This document shows, in pieces, positions 18,061 to 31,734 of a stretch of DNA of 64,000 nt. The notes beneath the pieces were generated by a model. That model saw only the letters and a program-made list of their open reading frames with translations, had not been told where the DNA came from and made no database searches. How positions within the stretch are numbered: the first letter of the stretch is position 1; each line of letters starts with the position of its first letter. This DNA comes from Straminergon stramineum (Eukaryota > Streptophyta > Bryopsida > Hypnales > Calliergonaceae): positions 22,672,906-22,736,905 of the forward strand of contig OY987264.1 of assembly GCA_963920665.1 (NCBI GenBank), in the 5' to 3' direction. The translations under genes and the position numbers were made by a program.

Positions 18061-18183
18061 GTTATGGACAACTTGTGAATTACTAAACTCTAATTCTTAA
18101 GTACAACTTGTAACTTGACAAGATATATCTTAGCTTTTGAAAAGACATATCTGGATTCTTATTTTGGTAACAAGTTAGGTAGT

Positions 18184-18191
18184 GACAAGAT
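18184..18191 (+). repeat. Target site duplication of the large transposon (left)
   Basis: GACAAGAT at 18184-18191 is repeated exactly at 26104-26111, immediately outside the two inverted repeats. Confidence 0.92.
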
Positions 18192-18218
18192 CCCGGGTAC
18201 GCAACTCCCATATTATAT
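18192..18218 (+). repeat. Left terminal inverted repeat (27 bp)
   Basis: It starts CCCGGGTACGCAACTCCC and is identical over 27 bp to the reverse complement of 26077-26103. The two ends diverge immediately after this. Confidence 0.95.
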
Positions 18219-21200
18219 GGCCATGATTATAATCACTTATAATGCATTTTAGTACAATCTCAAGGGATATAATTTGTTTTAATGTAGAAAACTCTTGTAG
18301 CCCTTTCAACAAGGAATCCAAAAATGTAATTATATACATGAAATGGATATTTTTGAGGATAAAAATAGCATTAAAAACCTAATTATATGAGTATTTTTAA
18401 TACATGTATCATAGGCCGAGCTACCCAACTTTTAGGGCTTTCTCATAAAAATTTAAGATTTTTATATTATAAATAATACATTGAAAATGAATTTTAATTT
18501 TAATTGGAGGGAACTTTTTGAATGAATTTTTTAAAATTATACATAGGGAACTTTTGAGTGTGATGGTTGAACTAGAAGATTATTCATTTATGTTAGAATA
18601 TTGTTGAGGTAGGTGTTATTTATGACCAAATATTTCATATTGTATCCAATGTATTTCAAGAATATGATAGCTAGCAGTAATGGACCCTAGGTAGTTGAAG
18701 GTCATTCCAAGGGAGCAACAGGTGTACTCTAAACCATAGTGCCGTTGCTATTTAGGTCTTCTTCTCTCTCTTGTCCATTTTTCCGCCATGTTTTTCTGCT
18801 GAGTTTTACTACCGCATTGTCTCTCTCATTTCTCTGTCGTCATTCTCCCATTTTTTTGGTGGACCACTGTCTTTGATTTGGAAGGGTGTTGCCAACATTT
18901 TTTGAGGTTGCATTCCATTTGGCAATTGTTGTGGAGGATCACACTTGGAGCATTGCCATAGAGTGTTGCTGTGGAGGATCTTGTTTGGTGATCATACATT
19001 TACATTCTTGATCAAAACTCAAAGATCTGCATCTCATGCGTAAACTTCCATCTCTGTCCTCCCTTATGGGTTTAGGTTTGTGTTTTTGAACCAGCTTGTG
19101 CAGCTTTTACATTTGCCGATTGGATCACTGTTTCTAGGGCATGCCTATTTGGCTTTGATTTTTAGCTTTATGATGGCCAGGCTCAATCGAGCATTGCATG
19201 AGGGTATTGATTGACTTGGCCTTCTTGGGTTCCTGATTCTTATGCTCCTTTTCTCACTCCTTTTGAAGTTGCAACCTTGTACTTTTAGGTCCATTGAACA
19301 TTGGTTTGTTCCATATTTGGGTTTGTCTTGTTGTTGACTTGATGTTTAGAGATGGAGTTTAAAGCTTGTTGGGTCTGGTGTTGTTTCCCATTGGTACGAA
19401 CATGACCTTGATAAAACTCTCATTGGTATATACTTCCCAAGGAAGATTAGATCTACTTCAGATTAGATTTGAGGTTTATGAGTGCCATCAACATATTGCC
19501 CCCACATTGTTTGGAATTGGTTGTCATTGAAGCTGAGCATTTCAAAAGGAGTACACAGTTCAAATTTTTTTTGAGCCGAGCCTATTGCTTGATGCTCTTG
19601 ACATCTTCATGGAGTAGAGATTGCAAAGTTGGCATGGTTAATTTTTTTTTCTCAGGGTTAGTTAATCCTTGTTTACTGCACATTGAGTGCAGTATCACCT
19701 ATCAATCAATGTGCAATATTGCATTCCTTTTTTTCTCTGTTCCGCTTGCAATTTCATGATTCTTGATTTGTTTTAGAACATGATTAGGATGACTATGCAA
19801 CTTTGGTTTCTCTGTTCTACACTTCTACTTCCACTTTTATAATTATTGATTTGATTTAGAACGTGATCAGGAGAGTGATCAGGAACATGATTATGAGCTT
19901 GATCATGTTTGATTAAAATATTTGTCAACCATTTGTTGAACTAGTGAGTCTAGTCTGATTTGTGTTAGTTTGAGACCTTTGATCTGTAGTTTGAGATCTC
20001 TAATCCTAGCACTTGAATCTCATGCTTACTTTTGTGAATCTTAACAAATATGATCCTTAGTCGATGATGTGCAGTTTCAACTTAAACTAATTTCAGGCTT
20101 CCATTGTCATTTCATTCTTATAGGGGGCCCTGGCAGTTGGAAACGGAGCTTAGCTTGATTGGAGAATTTTAACTCTACTTGTCAAGGTGTCTGAGAGACT
20201 GAAATTCTATTGATTGCTACTGTCAACGACTTGTGGGACAAGAATCTTATTAGGTAAGCAAGCCCATGTGAAATTTCAGTACTAGCTAAGGTAGTTTGCT
20301 CATAAACTGTGCATTTAAGGGCTGGTCGGCCTTTTCGATGGTTCTTAGATGCACGAAATTATTTTTTTCTTATTTTTCACTTGAAGAAAAATTGACGCGG
20401 AATCTAACCCAAGTGGTTTCATATTTTTCGGAGCATTTTTGAATTACTTACGAATTTCTAAAGAATTCTGCCATAGGTATCTATTTCTTCATCGTAGGCC
20501 TTACAAAACCCACACATGCATAGTCTGAAAAAAGATATGGCTTCACCAAAAACAAGTACTGCAGCATGTAGAAAGTAATAGACATGACCATATATAAGTT
20601 GACAATGAAGGAACTTGAACAATTAGGAAATTGATCAGCTATGGACTTGAATCAATGAATCAGGTAGAAACTTGAACTTGAATCCTTACTCAATTATTGA
20701 TGTTCAGAGTATGACCAACTGATTGGTTAAGTATGACTAAGTAATTCAGTTTTTTATTTAGTGTTTTTATTGATGGAAGTGTTGATGGATGTGTTGATTT
20801 GGTAACTCATCATTGGCATTGTTTTTTGATTTTTCAGAACATTCTGCATTTTCATTACTGCATTGTTTGATCTACAAAAGACATTGATTTTAAAGTTACT
20901 ACATCATGATCAAGTTTCAACATCAAGTTTCAAGAGGTTGCTACATTCAGGTGCTGAAGCCCACCTTAAGAACTTTTTTGTCCCATTCTTGTCCCTTTTC
21001 AAGAACTTTTTCTGAAGTGGTTGTTTTCTTCTTTTTCTCTAGAGCCTCTTGGTTGCATGAAAAATCTCACTACAGGCCTTATGTTTTATAGTAGTTTTGA
21101 GTATGTCCTATGTAGACTTCTTGTTCAAATCTATTTGTTTTAGGATCACCACAAGTAAAATTTGATCCCATTTGAATTATTTCTTCTACAATATGATCCA

Positions 21201-21480
21201 TTCAATTTGCCATTTTGAAACCATTAATCCTTGGTCCTATAGGGATTGAAGTCCAGCCCATGGCTATAGAAATTGATATTGTTTAGGATACAAAAAAAGC
21301 ATATCTTATTATCAGGAGGTTTTAAAAGAAGTTTTATTAATTTCCTGTGTTTATTTTCATAATGCAGATGTGGTGATACTATTGGTGTGTTGCTCTTTGG
21401 TGATCCTCTTCAAATTGGGCTATATTGGAACATACCAAATCTCATTCTTGTTTGGAAATAAGGTTTCCAAAGAGTTGAAG
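18219..21480 (+). other. Leader region of the large transposon
   Basis: No substantial protein-coding frame is visible in this 3.2 kb. The part from about 18,750 is pyrimidine-rich like a plant 5' UTR, a donor-like GTAAGC occurs near 20,252, and a strong polypyrimidine tract ends in TGCAG at about 21,367. This suggests one or more non-coding 5' exons spliced to the exon that carries the start at 21481. Positions about 20,330-20,470 resemble 33,880-33,990 outside the element. Confidence 0.4.
20330..20470 (+). repeat. Dispersed repeat fragment shared with 33,880-33,990
   Basis: Both places contain 'gaagaaaaat..' or 'gaaagaaaaat..', followed by 'atctaacccaagt.gtttcatat.tttt.ggagc' and 'gaatta.tta.gaattt'. 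The match is in the same orientation. It could be an older insertion carried within the transposon. Confidence 0.65.
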
Positions 21481-24400
21481 ATGGATGGTGTTAAATTCCT
21501 AGAGTGCAAGCGTCTCACAGGTTGCAATGGAGATGGTTGTTTGTTGTTTGACCCTTCAGATGAAAACCCCTTGTTTTGTGATTGTTGCTCTTGTCATAGA
21601 AGCTTTCACCTTGCAATTTTTGATAGACCTCCAAGTAGTGGTGCTTGTGTAAAGAAACACAATGGTGGGGTTGATGGTTGCCAATTGTTTCATGCTAATG
21701 TGGCCAATGCCCGTAAATGTGGTGCATGTGGGTGCCACAGATCGTTACATCAGCCTCAACCATTAACCTCACCATCATGTTCACATCAAATTACACGGAA
21801 TTCTGTTGTAAGCACTGCTCTTTCATCACAGGGTGATATTTTATTGATGGATGATGATGATGAATGTTTGAAAGAACCTGTAACTAAGAAGCTGAGAGTA
21901 AATGATGGTTCATCTAATGTCAATGGTACTCCACTTCCTTTTGCCAAGGTTAAATTGGAGTTTCCTATGAGTGACACTAACTGTGAGGTCATAGAAATGG
22001 GTGTTAGTAATAGCTTGGAGGTTGATATGATTGGCATACCTAAAAAGCTGCAGAAGAATTGGGAATTATTAGTGAAGAAATATCCTGAATGTGACTTTGG
22101 TAGCTTTGTTCCTTGCCTTTCCAAGGATGTAAAGAAGGGTTTGTCAACTTGGATAATTTGGTGTGATCCATGTCAAAAGGAAATGTGCATTAATCCAGGG
22201 AAGTCTTTTAACTTGTCAAACTTTGAAATACATCTCCAACCCAAATTATCTCTCAAACATGGAGTCCCTAGTGATAAATCAAAGCATGAGATGGCTTTGT
22301 TGGAACAAAGGAGAGTGGCTAAGTCCAAGTTGAAAGCTACTACAACTATTGAACTCACTGAATTGAAGAGGAGATCTTGGATAGTGAAGCATGCTTCAGA
22401 AGGTAATTATATTATTCCCTTCAATTTTGGACAAAGTATTTTTCTTTTCTCATGTATAATTCTAATGACAGTTTCTGTGGTTATATCTCAGGGGCTGTAA
22501 TGATTGATGACAATAATTGGAGGTGCACAATATGTGATTACAAGGGAAGGTTTGGGCAAGGGGATACAATTAGTGTTCACATGAAAGGAGTAGTACACAT
22601 ACAATCAATGAAAAACAAGGATGTTGCTGGTGGAAGAGGTAACCAACTTACCATTGCTGCTTCTCTAGCAAAGGGGGTCAGATCAGGAGCAGTTGAGTAT
22701 CCTCCATCTTTTATCCCTAATCCTATTGATATTCCACATCATGTATTATTGAGTTACATTGAAAAAAACGTTTGCCATGGATTCTACAACAAGTCATTAG
22801 TCATAATGAATGAGGTGGTAGATTGTAGCTTATTACTAAATGATCTTCATATTGGATCATTGTGGTACCCTGATCCACACTATTCTCAATGTATTGAGAA
22901 AAATAATGAAACTCTCCACATTAAAGGGACATTTAGGCATGTTGATTGTTCTATCATGTTTTGTAAAATGTGTCCCTTGATCCCAAAAGTAGATGACTTC
23001 AGAAAAAGAGCTTGGCGTTCAAGTCATGCAGTAGTTCCTAGAGGAGAACGATGCATGCAAAGGGGTACACATTTTGATTATCTTCAATATGAAGAATTGA
23101 TCACCTCAGCTAGAGAGTGGGAGAAGAGAGCTGATGCATGTAGTGGCCAAGTTTTTATGCTGAATTTAGCTTTGACTAGAGCAAAAACAACTAATCAATA
23201 TCTTCAACATAAATTGAAGACTACTTTGATTGAAGGCTCACTCCCTGAAATAGCAGAGCTTTTTAGGAAGGCTGCAAATTCTGGGGCCTTCCAAAAAAGG
23301 TCCACTTTGTATAATCTTTTGTTTGATACAGCCTCTAATTTGCTATCTGTTCATAAATGTGGTGGAGATGGCCATGGAAAGAGGTACCATCCAAGCACTG
23401 TGAAATTATTTGAGGTAGTTCACAATTTTGGTGGGGCTTCCACACACAATTTTATTTCTTCCAATTTGTTAGGACCAGTTATAAACACTAGCCAAAAGAT
23501 ATATAAAAGTGAGGGATTTTTGTATTCAGTTGGTCTAAATGAAGAAACATTTATTCATTTGTCATCAATACTAACAAAGTGCAAAGCCAAACTTGGAATT
23601 TCAGGCCCTATTCCTTTTGAATGCTCTGAAGATGAAACCACTTGTGTTGCATTAGCAACTCTATATAGGCGCAATGACTTCATAGATGGTTTTTGTGGAA
23701 CCAAAGCTTCTTCTGAAACTCCTCATAAGTGTTCATTTGATCCTAAACCTTCAGCTGCTAGTTTTGAGTCAATTACAGATGCTTTTTCAAGCTTGGAGGT
23801 TGGCAACATGTGTCGTGTATTAGTGACAAACCCTTTGGTCAAAGGAATGCCTAGATTGATCTATGGAATATTAACCACATGCAATAAGTTTGATGCCACC
23901 CAGGTTCAGTTGCAATGGACACGTGTTGCAGCTTTGCACAAGAAGCATCTTGAAGAGGTTGTTGGTCCTCTTAGAGGGCATGCAAGTGATGGTGATACAA
24001 GGATGAGAAAACTAATGTTGGAGAGCATTTACAAGGGTACATTTGGACTGAATGAAGATGGCTTCTTGATGAAGTCAGAGGTTGTTGATGGACATCCATT
24101 AATCATGGTACAAGATCCAATACATGTAGGTAAGAAACTTCGAAATCCTTTGTTGAGTCCTCGAAGGACAATATTTTGGGGTCATTTTTTGGCTCACAAA
24201 AACCATTTGCAATTGGTCACGGAATTGTTTACTAGAGATGAGCATGGTTTGTTGGATGAAGATATAAATGTAAAGGACAAGCAAAATTATCCAGCTGTAC
24301 AACGTATTTCATTTCCTCAAGTTAGAGCATGTTTAGAAAAATTACATGCAGGAGTAGTTGTAAAAGGGGTCTTCAGGAAGGAATGTGTGTTGGGTACAAT

Positions 24401-25904
24401 CATTCATTTAGAAATATTGTGGGCATTCTTAGAGATTTTCTATGGACGTGGAACAATGTATGAGAGGGTAATGCTTGCTTCATTTGTCTCTCATATGCTT
24501 TATTATGGAACAGAGTACATCCTTCATCAAAAGCATGGTCATACCACTGGGGGCAATTGGATGAGTAGAGAGACTCGCACTGATTGCCTCATATCTTGTC
24601 ATGCTGCTGTTAACTATGTTAGAATGATGAGAAATAATTACCCTCATTTGCCATGCCCATTAAGTAACATTGGTTCAGATTGTTGTGAGGACTTTTTTTC
24701 CCTCCTTGGACAACAAGTGAAAAATAAACATACATTTTCTGTTGGAGAAGCTATTGAAAGATGTTCTCACATTGGTAGAACTGAGCAAGTTAAATATTCT
24801 GATGATGGAATATCATTTGCTCAATCCCGGCGGAGGAAGAATATATGGTGGTCATCAAATGCCCAAGTGGCAGGTTCTAACTTGTGTGATTATGCCTCAG
24901 TGACTGATGAGAATCTTAAGAAGGCTTGGTGTGAAGGCATTGTTATGGCACAGAATAGGGCTGAGAGGGTTGCCATGAAGGAGGTACTTCAAACATTAGG
25001 GAAGTGGACTGACCCTTTCCCCCATTCTTTTAGTCATGAATCATTAGCTCATGATACACATGAAAATTATACAAAAAGAACTAACAATCATGTTGTTGAT
25101 GATGGGCCTCTTAGAGAAGCTATAGTAGTTTTACAATCAACATTGTTACATACTGAGCAAAGTGATAATTTAGATAGTAGAATTTTGAGTGTAGGCTCAA
25201 AACACTCTTCTACAATTGAAGTACCAGGTAAAGGTCAAGTGTATAAGATGAGATTAATTTTTGAATTGAACATACACTCCCTTGAGAAGTTGCCTTTGGA
25301 TAGGTTGAGGCATGTAAGATATAAAAGTACAAATCTAGATGCTTATGTGTATGATGATGATCAAGTGCATATTGGATTATTTGATGATGTTGGGCTTTTG
25401 TTTGATGAGGGTAATGGGAAGTTGCTATGGCACATTGGAAGGGTGCAAAAAATAGTCAAGGCTGTTGGAGAAAAAGGAGCCCAAGTGGATTATGTTCAAA
25501 GTGTTTCACTTTTTGATGAGAAAATCAGTATATTGCCAAAGTTTTATAAGCACATTGCAGGATTGCAGTATACATATGGAGGTTATGAAGGAGCTGAATG
25601 TGACTTCATTGGTTTAGAGAGTATTGTATGCATTGTTACAATAGTCATTGATGTGGATAAAGACATTTATACATTGGCTGTAGAAGATCGTGATGCCTTG
25701 GATAAGTATGTGGATTGTGAGATGAAGCGTAGAGGCTCATGTAGTGGAGTTAGAAGTAGAGAGAAGGAGTGCACTACATGTGTAATTGCCACAGCTCCTT
25801 CCAAAAGAGGGAGACCTCAGAAGGCCCCTATAGTTTTAGCAAATACTAGTCTAATATCTTCTTCAAACACCCCCATAAGGCACTCTACAAGGTTAAAAAA
25901 ATAG
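21481..25904 (+). CDS. Putative transposase: paired ZF-HD-like fingers, C2H2 finger, P-like core, AT-hook
   Basis: Two exons (21481-22402 and 22492-25904) join in phase across an 89-bp GT-AG intron and give about 1,444 residues. I chose the ATG at 21481 because it precedes the first finger; the frame is open upstream to 21370. Residues about 9-43 and 59-90 are two ZF-HD-type dimerisation fingers ending CDCCSCHRSFH and CGACGCHRSLH, with the upstream (V)DGC. A further Cys cluster (WCDPCQKEMC) lies near 228-237. A C2H2/BED-like finger lies at C319-C322-H337-H343. DPIHVGKKLRNPL (Asp849) matches the D..H..K..RN motif of P-element/THAP9 transposases, and SDCCEDFFS (Asp1037, Glu1040) resembles their C-terminal D..E.FF catalytic block. 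RGRPQK near 1413 is an AT-hook in a basic tail. The first catalytic Asp is not identified. The gene fills an element with perfect ends, so transposase is the likely role. Confidence 0.82.
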
Positions 25905-26076
25905 GTGTTTCATTCTTCATATATCTTATGAAGTTTTTTTTAATAAATATGCAACCCAACATTTTCTACAAGTATTTTATTTAATTTGACCTTCACCCAA
26001 CTTTTTGGTTGTTTTAATTCCATATAATTTTTACAAAAGCAGTCCTCTAAGCCATTTTAATGCCGATGACCCCTGT

Positions 26077-26103
26077 ATATAATATGGGAGTTGCGTACCC
26101 GGG
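26077..26103 (-). repeat. Right terminal inverted repeat (27 bp)
   Basis: This is the exact reverse complement of 18192-18218, followed at 26104-26111 by the GACAAGAT target duplication. Confidence 0.95.
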
Positions 26104-26111
26104 GACAAGAT

Positions 26112-29100
26112 GTGGCCTTGTTTAGGGATGTTCAATCTTAGTCCCTAATTATTGAACTATTCATTTATGTTCATTCAAGAAAGAAATGTAATTTTTTATG
26201 TAAAGTAGGCCCTTTGACCCCAATAGCTTATGATGTGGAAATACCACACCTTAAAAGGCTCTATATAATTTAATTTGCCTTTGATGCATTGCTTGATTTA
26301 CTTCCTGTCTTTTCAATTTTCACATCTATTTATAATCATAAAAGGAGCTTTTTATGGATTTTTTTGTTAGCACTATGCTTTTATGATATGATTTTATATT
26401 CATATTCTTACTAAACATAAGAGTTAATTTTTAAACCTATACAAATCAGCTTTCTTTGCTAAGCAATACTATAGGTATTTTAGTCCCACTACATATACCA
26501 CATGATGTGGCTTCTTTCATAATACATGGGCTCTCAAATCTAAATTACCTCTAGGTGGATTGTACCACCCTCCCACCTACTAAGGGTGATGGTTTAAATG
26601 GCTATATGTCCACCACCTATTTGATGTAACTACCCCCATTATGGCCATCTCTATGTGCTTTCCCTCCCATTTTCAAATTAGTCAACATATAGTGGCTTCT
26701 CTGCCTCATTTCTTTTCTCTCTCACTGTGATAGTTGAATTTTGGGAGTGTGGTGTTTACTTACTTACTTTCTTGCAAGACTCTTGAAATTCAAGCAATTG
26801 CACATCACAAGAATGGCAAAAGGTCATTGGGATTCATGCACTTTGCTTAGGATTTTGGCTTTACCGTGATTACTTACCAATTTGTGATCTATTGTTTTCC
26901 TTTTTGGTTTTATGAATCTGTGACATAGATAGCAATTGGCCATTGCTGAAGACACTTGTTACATCTTCACTAACATGACATTGGATTGTTGTGTGATTGG
27001 GACGGGTATAGATGAGGCGTGGCCTTCAAGTTCTAAACTCCCATTTTTGAAGTACTTGGAGCAAGTTTTTTCTAGCACTTAGACATCTTGTCAACTTTTT
27101 GTCCTCACTTATATGGATATTTTCATTGGATCACACTTGGATTTAGAGGCTTATAAATTATTGTACCAACACCAAAGTGTCATATCTTGACACTTTTGGG
27201 ACTTGCCTAAGTTTGAGATGTTTTATTCTATTTTTACCAAGGTTATGCTTGGATTCACATTTGGCCACAAAGCTAGGTTTTGGAAAGTTGAAGCCCTGTT
27301 TCAGTCTTAGTCTCTTCTATGAATATGAAAATTCTAATTATATTAAATTTATAAAAAAAAATAGAATTGTACTATGTATTAATGTGTGTCCACCCCCAAG
27401 TCTGTATCATTTTTTCGGGCCTTTTGGGCGTCGTTTTGCACACCACCATTGAAATTCATTAGTGATGAACTATACTGACTAGTGTTTTTTCTCTGGCAAT
27501 TTGTTGTCAATTTGCACCAAAATAATAGGTCTTGCAATAGGCTTACAAAACATAAATAGTAAATTCTTGGATGAAATTGCCAAAAAACTTCAAATTATAA
27601 AAAGATCTTGGATGAAAATATAACTATGGATATATGGTATATGCTAATGTGATATTTTCTATCCAATATATGGATGAAATTTGGAGCACCACTATAATAT
27701 CGAATATTGTCACTTTGGCACTTCACCAAAAATGAAAAAACAAACAATCTGATACTGACTACCCAACAAATTCTTCATCAGTCACGTTGGTTCTATGGTA
27801 GATGGTGATAATTCTGTGCGTGTTCTAACAATTGCCCTATAGGTAGAACAAAAAGTGTTCTTCTGACATTGTTAAAACAGTGCCTTTGATGATGTCTTTG
27901 ATATATGGACGTGATTTGAAATGGTGTTGGACACTTTTGGAGTTGAGAATGGTGAACTTTTAAACCATACTTGGAGAATTTATAAATGCAATTGTAGAGT
28001 TAATGAGTCTCTTATAATATTTTCATTTTAAGTTCAGGAGTTGTCAGAGCCTGATCGACAAACCTTCAGATCTAATTTTATAATCTAATTTTTCAAAGTT
28101 GGCATGTGTGCCAAGTTTTGTATCCTCCCAGGACCATACATGAACCAAAGGGAGGCCACCTAAAATTAAGGCACTCACATTTGGTAGGTCTAACTGCACC
28201 ATTCAAGGATAGATGCTTCACTTTTATTGATGTCCTCTACGAACATAAATAGCACCCTATGGCAATTGTGTTTAAAAAATCATATTTAATTCAGCGTACC
28301 AGCAAAAATTATGAAAAAAATTGCTTCTCAATTCATTTTCTCTTTTCTTACTCTTTAAAATTCATCTAAATTGTTCAGATCACAATTTTGGACTGTGGAA
28401 GCAAAAACGCTCTTAAATGAGCAGTTTCTGCACCATCTACCTTATGACCAGAGTTCCTCTTCCTCTTCTTCTTCTTCATGAGTGAGTCTGACAAAGTCGA
28501 CGCCTGCTGTGAGTTGTCTGTCTGTCTGTCTGTCTCTCTCGCCCACTGGACTCTTCAGTTGCTCGAATCCCAAGTTCATCCATGTGCATTATTGCAGAGT
28601 GATTGCATCATCTCCTCCGTCCAGTGCATGCTCCAATGTCGATCGTCACAAATAAACCTCTACAGTTAAGCCCTTCAACGCGAGAATTCGATCCCCAGTT
28701 CCCCACCGGCCGGCTTCATGGAGCCCGAATCTCAGAATCACAACAGAGCATTCTTGGGAGCAAACGAAGTTCATTGATTTCGGGAATGGATGTGGATGGC
28801 TTCTCGATCTCAGAGTGCACGTGAAAACCCACCTGCAGTACTGCTCATGTGAAGCAGCCGCCGACCAAGATGTGTGCAGGATGTAGCTGGGGAATGTAGT
28901 TAGTACCGAGTCGTTGCAGTACTAGGCAGGCAGGGATTTGTGGGTTCAAAAGAAATTCCAGCTAAGTTTAACAGAAAGGATTCCCTGTTTTCAGGATGGC
29001 ACGCTCTGTCTAATCTCGCCTCTGAGGCAGCTTTCAAGTTCCAACTCCTAGTTTGCGAGTGATCAGCTCGATCTGGCGCGCGGGTCCGAGTAATCGCACG

Positions 29101-29745: not shown

Positions 29746-31734
29746 ATGGTTGCGCAGGACAGTGTAGGACATGGCTGTGCCTGGCAGCTTGTTATCAGCT
29801 TGGTCTTCTTTGTCTCCACTGCAGGTACTGGCCCCTGATCTTTGCAAATTGTTTGTAGGTTCAAACTCCCTACAATTATTGTACTCTCTCGCTCACTTCG
29901 TTTCTCCCTGCAGGAGCCTTTGTGGGATTCAACTACGGCAGAAATGGCGACAACCTCCCGACGCCGTCACAAACCGTGCAGCTCCTGGGAAATCTCGGCG
30001 TCACGCACGTTAGAATCTACGACACCGACCCTTCCGTTCTGAGTGCATTCCGAAACTCCAACCTCCAGCTCGTAGTCGGCGTACTCAACAGTGAGCTCAT
30101 TGACATTGGCAGCTCCAACACCTCCGCGTACACATGGCTAACTACACGAGTCGTCCCTTTTCTGAATTCGACGAATATCTACGCCATTGCGGTGGGGAAT
30201 GAGGTACTGACAGGCTTCGCTAACGCTTCGTCGTTTCTCGTGCCGGCGATGAATAACATCTACTCTGCACTCGTCGCAAACAATTTGCAGAGCAATATTA
30301 GGGTTTCGTCCCCCTGTTCCATGGAGCTTTTGGCCCAGTCGTACGTCCCTTCCTCTGGGCAATTCAACGGATCGTTTCCCGAGACCTCCCTGTTGCTTGA
30401 TTTTCTGTCCCAGACGTCGTCCCCGTTTATGCTGAATGTGTACCCCTGGAAAGCGTACACCTTGGAATCGACGGCCATTGTTTTGGACTACGCCCTGTTC
30501 ACTCCGAACGCCGGCGTTTTCGACTCGGGCACCAGTTTGACGTACTCCAGTCTGTTCGATGCGCAAGTTGACGCTGTGTACTCTGCTTTGGCAAAAGCCA
30601 ATCACTCCGACTTGGTTATTGTGGTGGGTGAAACGGGCTGGCCAACTGTAGGTGACACTGGAGAAGTCGGTGCGTCGATTGAGAACGCGCAGACTTACAA
30701 CGCCAATCTGGTGCAGCGTTTGGTGAACAGGACGGGGACGCCGGTGCGACCGGGCATCGAAATCGACACGTTCTTGTATGAGCTCTACAATGAGAATTTG
30801 AATGTTGGACCTGCGTCACAGAGAAATTTCGGTATGTTCAATGTTGATGGTACTCCATTGTATACGGTCAATCTGAACGGTAGCAGCATCAGCAGTTCCA
30901 ATGATACAGTCCCTGTTTCTGGCAACTCAATATTCCAGCGAAGCTGGTGTATTGCGAAACAGGTTAGGGATCTCTTCCACTCTCTACGCTGTTCCTATTT
31001 TAGATTTTCTTAGTTGGCTGCAGCTATGTTCTGAGGTTTGATCGCGGTGCTTGATGACACTACATTAGGGAGTACCGGAGGACGTGCTGCAAACTTCAAT
31101 CGACTTTGCTTGTGGAGTGGGGAATGTGAGTTGCACAGCCATTCAGGAGAATGGCACCTGCTTCCTTCCTAATACCAGATACTCTCATGCTTCGTGGGCA
31201 ATAAACATGTTCTACGTCAGTAGCACTGATGGAGCTTCTGTTTGCAATTTTCAAGGCGCTGCTAGACAGACTACCAGAGATCCAAGTAAGTGCAATTAGT
31301 GCTCTTCCCGAGGGATATCCGTCGCTGATTGTTTCTTCTGATGCGCTTGCAACGCCGCCCATGAAGACTAAGGGTGTTGCATTTGAATCCACGATCGGGC
31401 TCATTTATATTATTTTGCATTGATTTGCTCAATATCCTTCGTTCTACTTAATTTGCGTCGTTCTTTTGTGCAGGCTACAGTGCTTGTCTATATCCAGCCA
31501 GGTACATATCTTTGCCATCCGTCTACCTTTGTACACGAATGTATCTGAAAACATTAGCGACATTTAATTTCTCTCTTCTGATCTTGAACAAATTCTGCGT
31601 GACTCACACCGTGATTTGTCGTCTACAGCACATCAACACCCGTAAGTGGCGGCATCAAGTTGGAGCTGCCATTCACTTCAACGCAACTCCTGTATCAACT
31701 ATTTTTCATACTCCTGGCTATGAACCTGAGATAA
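29746..31734 (+). CDS. Glucan endo-1,3-beta-glucosidase, GH17 with X8 domain and GPI-type tail
   Basis: Five exons (29746-29824, 29914-30962, 31069-31285, 31474-31501, 31629-31734) have GT-AG introns and consistent phases, giving 492 residues. The N-terminus has a hydrophobic signal peptide ending near residue 26. The GH17 barrel begins AFVGFNYGRNGDNLP; the acid/base Glu is E123 in AVGNEV and the nucleophile is E266 in VVGETGWPT. After a Ser-rich linker comes an X8 (CBM43) domain from WCIAKQ (371) with VPEDVLQ, ACG, NGTCF, ASWAIN and DPSYSAC. The last exon encodes a hydrophobic tail typical of a GPI signal, so the enzyme should sit at the outer plasma membrane. Such enzymes cut callose and act at plasmodesmata, the cell plate or cell wall. 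Exon 4 has only 28 bp. I am confident of the family; the exact start could differ slightly. Confidence 0.94.

Follow-up and report, generated by a model that had tools for sequence, protein, structure and literature searches.

A 64,000-nucleotide stretch of the Straminergon stramineum genome (Bryopsida, Hypnales, Calliergonaceae; GenBank assembly GCA_963920665.1, contig OY987264.1, positions 22,672,906 to 22,736,905 of the forward strand), here called the window, carries on its plus strand a 7,912-bp element (18192..26103) that looks like an autonomous cut-and-paste transposon. With a probability of roughly 0.88, we read it as an element whose transposase is homologous to the P transposases and which represents a green-lineage branch with ZF-HD-like and BED-like zinc fingers in place of the THAP domain. 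The likeness to P lies in mechanism, fold, and catalytic homology; the element is not a canonical P/THAP9 element, and its newness is judged apart from any sequence comparison with Repbase. The boundaries follow from terminal inverted repeats (TIRs), a target-site duplication (TSD), other copies in the genome, and empty sites.

Ends, copies, and empty sites of the element

The left (18192..18218, plus strand) and right (26077..26103, minus strand) TIRs are identical 27-mers in inverted orientation, with 0 matches expected in 100 shuffles, and a separate search for inverted repeats within the element returned these 27 bp again and none longer. Immediately outside lie two exact copies of the 8-bp TSD GACAAGAT (18184..18191 and 26104..26111, no strand assigned). 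The predicted gene has two exons on the plus strand, exon 1 (21481..22402; codons 1-307 and the first base of codon 308) and exon 2 (22492..25904, including the stop and the catalytic part), separated by an 89-bp GT..AG intron (22403..22491). The splice was predicted from GT..AG and the reading frame, and the exons, joined by script, give one unbroken frame of 1,444 amino acids (aa) plus stop. Perfect repeats, an exact duplication, and an unbroken 1,444-codon gene had all been claimed in an earlier sequence-only reading of this DNA, and all three hold.

The genome containing the window comprises 326,016,511 bases in 59 contigs. Searching it with the 27-mer at up to three mismatches, as that reading had proposed, yielded 304 places (151 forward and 153 reverse); the reversed pattern gave 0 on either strand. 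The pairing of ends drew on 100 of the 304 matches, and among those listed nine large end pairs were found, six of them with exact TSDs (8 of 8 positions), each of a different sequence. Two additional TIR ends lie at C2:28690577 and C7:18374339. Eight of nine further single ends could be paired into elements of 516-1,446 bp (seven exact TSDs and one matching at 7 of 8), and the ninth (L006) has no partner within its 3-kb locus. When all 18 end pairs, including the window, are pooled, 14 have exact 8-bp TSDs, one matches at 7 of 8, and three match at 2-3 of 8; the 14 exact TSDs have no strong target consensus. Kolobok duplicates 4 bp of TTAA (PMC9587614); the duplications here are varied and 8 bp long.

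Deletion derivatives of the element reuse its ends. For a 517-bp derivative formed from both ends (e.g., L073:201-717), there were 661 first-look candidates, and the 40 copies that were scored share 96-100% identity with the query; the true number is therefore at least 40 and may be in the hundreds, and the derivative is likely an abundant family of miniature inverted-repeat transposable elements.

When a query joining both flanks of the window insertion was searched for, 36 of the best 40 of 63 candidates scored span the junction (counted from the table), and two of the four non-spanning places are the element's own flanks. Six of the 36 sites were aligned; in all six the flanks are continuous and the 8 bp occur once (five GACAAGAT and one AACAAGAT). 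At another insertion (C1:39730997-39738902), the table shows the junction spanned, unaligned, by 38 of the best 40 of 58 candidates, and the remaining two are its own flanks. Since both insertions lie in repeats, these empty sites are paralogous. The target of the window insertion (window 18092-18191 and 26104-26203) itself belongs to a dispersed repeat that is present dozens of times. With the ends found many times and empty sites at hand, an arrangement in which the ends occur only once and no empty site exists is ruled out.

Probable homology of the catalytic core to P transposases

The structural model of the core (exon-2 residues 335-767; 23496..24794, plus strand) has a predicted RNase H fold split by a helical insertion, as in P, with an Asp-Asp-Glu (DDE) triad and a D(2)H motif in P-like order. 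A family profile of 20 rows (19 used) was aligned locally in hhalign with a profile of 96 P proteins (from 120 listed, at 500-950 aa, one vector construct excluded), giving a probability of 96.8% and a P value of 3e-10. Control alignments (reversed P, five block shuffles, and reversed family) reached a probability of at most 0.1%, and four row-dropping variants gave P values between 5e-7 and 2e-11. Residues that were not chosen beforehand fell together in this alignment: D230, D303, D339, H342, and E531 of P co-align with exon-2 D380, D499, D541, H544, and E732, and a separate profile merge gave the same catalytic-residue pairing. These positions are conserved both in the 96 P rows (D in 92, D in 94, D in 96, H in 93, and E in 91, respectively) and in the 20 family rows (D in 20, D in 20, D in 19, H in 20, and E in 18 with 2 gaps). 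Residues 1-569 and 617-751 of the P sequence used for reference were confirmed against the PDB.

On the plus strand of the window, the putative catalytic residues are Asp 1 (protein D688; 23631..23633), Asp 2 (protein D807; 23988..23990), and Glu (protein E1040; 24687..24689). The D(2)H motif (D541..H544) is at 24114..24125, and the insertion between it and the Glu, the counterpart of the guanosine triphosphate (GTP)-binding domain of P, covers 24171..24653 with approximate boundaries. Transposition might proceed as follows: N-terminal fingers would bind subterminal DNA, copies of the protein would pair both element ends, D380, D499, and E732 would hold metal ions for DNA cutting and joining, and insertion would occur through an 8-bp stagger. 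Broken and miniature copies could be moved in trans by the same enzyme.

Homologue searches returned eight sequences from a single sequence and seven from an alignment, 12 of them distinct. Among these is Klebsormidium nitens KFL_000070500 (P0005), which is 45% identical across 76% of exon 2. The same genome also holds a second, distant P-like lineage that is 28-35% identical to the window protein, with members L067 (G000:C10:7604700-7608200), L068 (G000:C5:4210300-4214200), L037, and L069-L071. In an hmmsearch with the animal P profile, L067 was the best family row (E 3.3e-7, among 20 sequences), scoring better than the window protein (E 1.1). Among GTDB contigs there was one relative (L039:2753-6067; 1,104 aa, 24% identical), for which Pfam gave nothing at an E cutoff of 1; its contig is labelled as a Planctomycetota metagenome-assembled genome, and it is probably eukaryotic contamination. 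All 18 IMG/VR pattern matches failed tblastn, so no relative was confirmed there.

Several observations weigh against a P-like transposon. (i) The Pfam P models (TNP-like_RNaseH_N, GBD, and RNaseH_C), which match Drosophila P itself, detected neither the window protein (E cutoff 10) nor any of nine family members (E cutoff 1). (ii) One P sequence compared with the family alignment was not significant, and the P profile in hmmsearch did not pick out the window protein. (iii) Foldseek with a first, weaker model placed RAG1 on top at E 2.7e-3, with nothing at 1e-3 or below. (iv) Three large end pairs have TSDs that agree at only 2, 3, and 2 of 8 positions; the pair at C5 has a 517-bp miniature copy at its start and is therefore a wrong pairing, and the two pairs without matching TSDs at G000:C2:24485181-24492092 and G000:C7:14071903-14083112 may be chimaeric, nested, or mispaired. 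Even at an E cutoff of 10, exon 2 had no Pfam match, under HMMER filters that drop most matches above ~0.1, and a BFVD fold search found nothing at E 1e-3 or below. No match came from a PDB sequence search with the window protein; the same search with the family alignment gave two weak matches (E 0.031 and 4.3), which were rejected as unrelated. A PF21787 search of the genome gave 0 matches, a result that carries no information, as its control detected 0 of 14. Taken together, the modelled fold, the profile-profile homology, and the co-aligned catalytic residues support a core homologous to P transposases. Of the profile searches that had been suggested, those with the P, KDZ, and hAT models of Pfam returned nothing at E up to 10, and the P relation emerged from profile-profile alignment. 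Because the Pfam P models miss this family, annotation pipelines relying on them may miss it too.

A hAT element would share the 8-bp TSD, is a type known in plants, and also has a C/DxxH motif (PMC9587614). However, Hermes (hAT) was not the closest fold, and we regard this assignment as extremely unlikely. Pfam models of the hAT dimerisation and transposase regions, and that of KDZ (Kyakuja-Dileera-Zisupton), detected nothing at an E cutoff of 10, in a scan of low sensitivity that also missed the P relation.

A different front end and a possibly altered GTP site

The N-terminal region differs from that of P. Exon 1 matches Pfam ZF-HD_dimer (PF04770) at E 4.7e-8 in two stretches, which correspond to a tandem pair of ZF-HD-like zinc fingers (residues 9-43 and 56-90 of the protein; 21505..21750, plus strand). 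By eye, a BED-like CxxC...HxxxxxxxxH stretch (residues 228-260; 22162..22260, plus strand) and, at the start of exon 2, a finger-like CxxC...HxxxxxH stretch (22524..22598, plus strand; also seen in the alignment) can be added, neither with a Pfam match. The tandem fingers recur in other copies, and a relative ~51% identical in exon 2 has a degenerate version of the pair. In those portions of the distant same-genome lineage that were retrieved, no ZF-HD-like motif was seen; CxxC...HxxxxxxxxH-like stretches occur both there and in P0005. No THAP domain was detected when the window protein was scanned with Pfam at an E cutoff of 10. ZF-HD fingers are known from plant transcription factors, and such fingers may have been exchanged between transposases and host regulators. 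A ZF-HD search of the genome gave three strong and four partial matches; the window's own fingers are missing from its output, so weak fingers escape it.

The residues of P that contact GTP are K385, K400, V401, S409, F443, D444, N447, and D528 (PMC7776569). Several are replaced in the family: N447 is N in 95/96 P rows versus 0/20 family rows, S409 is S in 95/96 versus 3/20, and K385 is K in 85/96 versus 0/20 (G in 19). At V401, 87/96 P rows but 4/20 family rows have V, with other hydrophobics in most family rows, and F443 is F in 89/96 P rows and L or I in 18/20 family rows. Speaking against a lost GTP site, D528 is conserved in each of the 18 family rows that have no gap there, an acidic residue (E or D) occupies the D444 position in 16/20, and K400 is N in 18/20 family rows but also in 22/96 P rows. 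The pattern weakly suggests that the GTP cofactor is changed or absent, since the alignment is poor in this region.

With no THAP found and several GTP contacts replaced, the earlier assignment to the P/THAP9 superfamily, made from motifs and TSD length, does not fit in its narrow sense; what stands is a P-like identity by fold, profile homology, and catalytic residues. The same two features, together with the absence of a Pfam P model or single-sequence match, could also indicate a separate superfamily that has only the general layout of an RNase H fold with helical insertion in common with P, hAT, RAG, and Transib, P being merely the nearest solved structure, as several superfamilies (e.g., Zisupton, Kolobok, and Novosib) have no solved structure for comparison, so that their absence among the fold matches carries no weight. 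We consider this improbable; of the two options that had been offered, a new P-like clade fits better.

A P-like clade could also correspond to a superfamily or family of green algae already described in Repbase (e.g., Novosib or one of its P families). Green algae are the source of Novosib, whose duplications are 8 bp long, and the Wicker classification reportedly may list P in plants. Repbase counts both Novosib and P among its DNA-transposon superfamilies. On the other side, no Pfam transposase model matches, and a plant transposable-element review names seven TIR superfamilies, which do not include P (PMC10741241); a second review counts six and, in the text available, mentions P elements only for Drosophila (PMC9033089). 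No plant P family appeared in titles or abstract openings of the literature searched, a scope outside which lie most subscription papers, bioRxiv, and Repbase Reports, and no described plant family matched better in the data searched, Repbase being outside their scope. Prior description in Repbase seems unlikely to us.

Age and activity of the family

To the sequence-only reading, the element was young and possibly active. In a protein search of the genome (best 41 of 196 candidates scored; 51 matches listed), eight near-full-length matches were among those listed. Only the window copy has a stop-free exon 2; the other seven contain stops, which counts against activity and would suit a dead fossil with a frame intact by luck. 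In addition, DNA comparison over 3-5 kb per locus places seven other large copies at ~96-98%, not 100%, identity to the window copy, and an older relative (L019) at 85-91%. The fossil explanation has to contend with two copies on one contig (L010 and L011; G000:C1:39716666-39724571 and 39730997-39738902) that lie in inverted orientation ~6.4 kb apart, are 99.98% identical over 5,110 bp compared, and have one internal stop in common but different TSDs, so that one of the two arose recently. It was presumably moved by an enzyme made elsewhere, and the arrangement suggests a local hop. The near-identity of the 40 scored miniatures also argues against a fossil, as do pairwise dN/dS (nonsynonymous to synonymous) ratios among the window and four copies of 0.50-0.83 (undefined for the identical pair), which are raw values that include neutral change in dead copies. 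We see a dead fossil as unlikely. As judged from the sequences, the data support a recently mobile family and an autonomous-looking window copy, so that youth and possible activity are retained at the family level.

Bringing these parts together, one might picture an ancient green-lineage P branch in which ZF-HD-like fingers replaced THAP, the GTP cofactor was lost or changed, and the elements are still moving; we hold this full scenario only tentatively.

Other features of the window

The 3.3-kb 5' leader (18219..21480, plus strand) presumably holds the promoter and 5' untranslated region. It contains no open reading frame (ORF) of at least 100 aa that would suggest a separate second gene, the one exception being a stretch that starts with a GTG at 21370 and extends exon 1 in frame. 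Rfam had no match in the window at gathering thresholds. Outside the element, the window includes a glycoside hydrolase family 17 (GH17) ORF of 363 aa (29922-31013; E 3.8e-78). This ORF, the ZF-HD genes elsewhere in the genome, and the Klebsormidium relative are indirect signs of a plant origin.

Comparison with known systems

If our reading is correct, P-type transposases, studied in animals, would also have a green-lineage branch, one that differs from them in its DNA-binding front end and its GTP site. This would make it testable whether GTP is essential to the P transposase fold or an animal-side addition, and would supply a recently mobile plant family with many miniatures as well as a starting point for tracing where ZF-HD fingers came from. 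Distant non-animal P homologues include one amoebozoan and one chromalveolate (PMC3985635), and THAP domains are described as animal-only and absent from plants in the available text of a review (PMC7776569).

Like the Drosophila P transposase (PDB 6p5a and 6pe2), the window protein has a predicted RNase H fold with helical insertion, a DDE triad, and a D(2)H motif, and the element has the 8-bp TSD, ~30-bp TIRs (31 bp in P versus 27 bp here), and internally deleted non-autonomous copies of P (PMC7776569). In contrast to P, the family has ZF-HD-like fingers but no detected THAP domain, N447, S409, and K385 are replaced, the spacing between the first two Asp residues is 119 rather than 73 residues, and the window protein is about twice as long, at roughly 10-13% identity. 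THAP9, Galileo, and other animal P-superfamily elements are similar in their 8-bp TSDs (zebrafish and Drosophila; PMC7776569) and P-type catalytic core, but they carry THAP domains. HzTransib and RAG1, the next-best fold matches, have an RNase H fold with an insertion. Klebsormidium nitens P0005 shares the same motifs as the window protein, whereas its predicted protein is without ZF-HD-like fingers.

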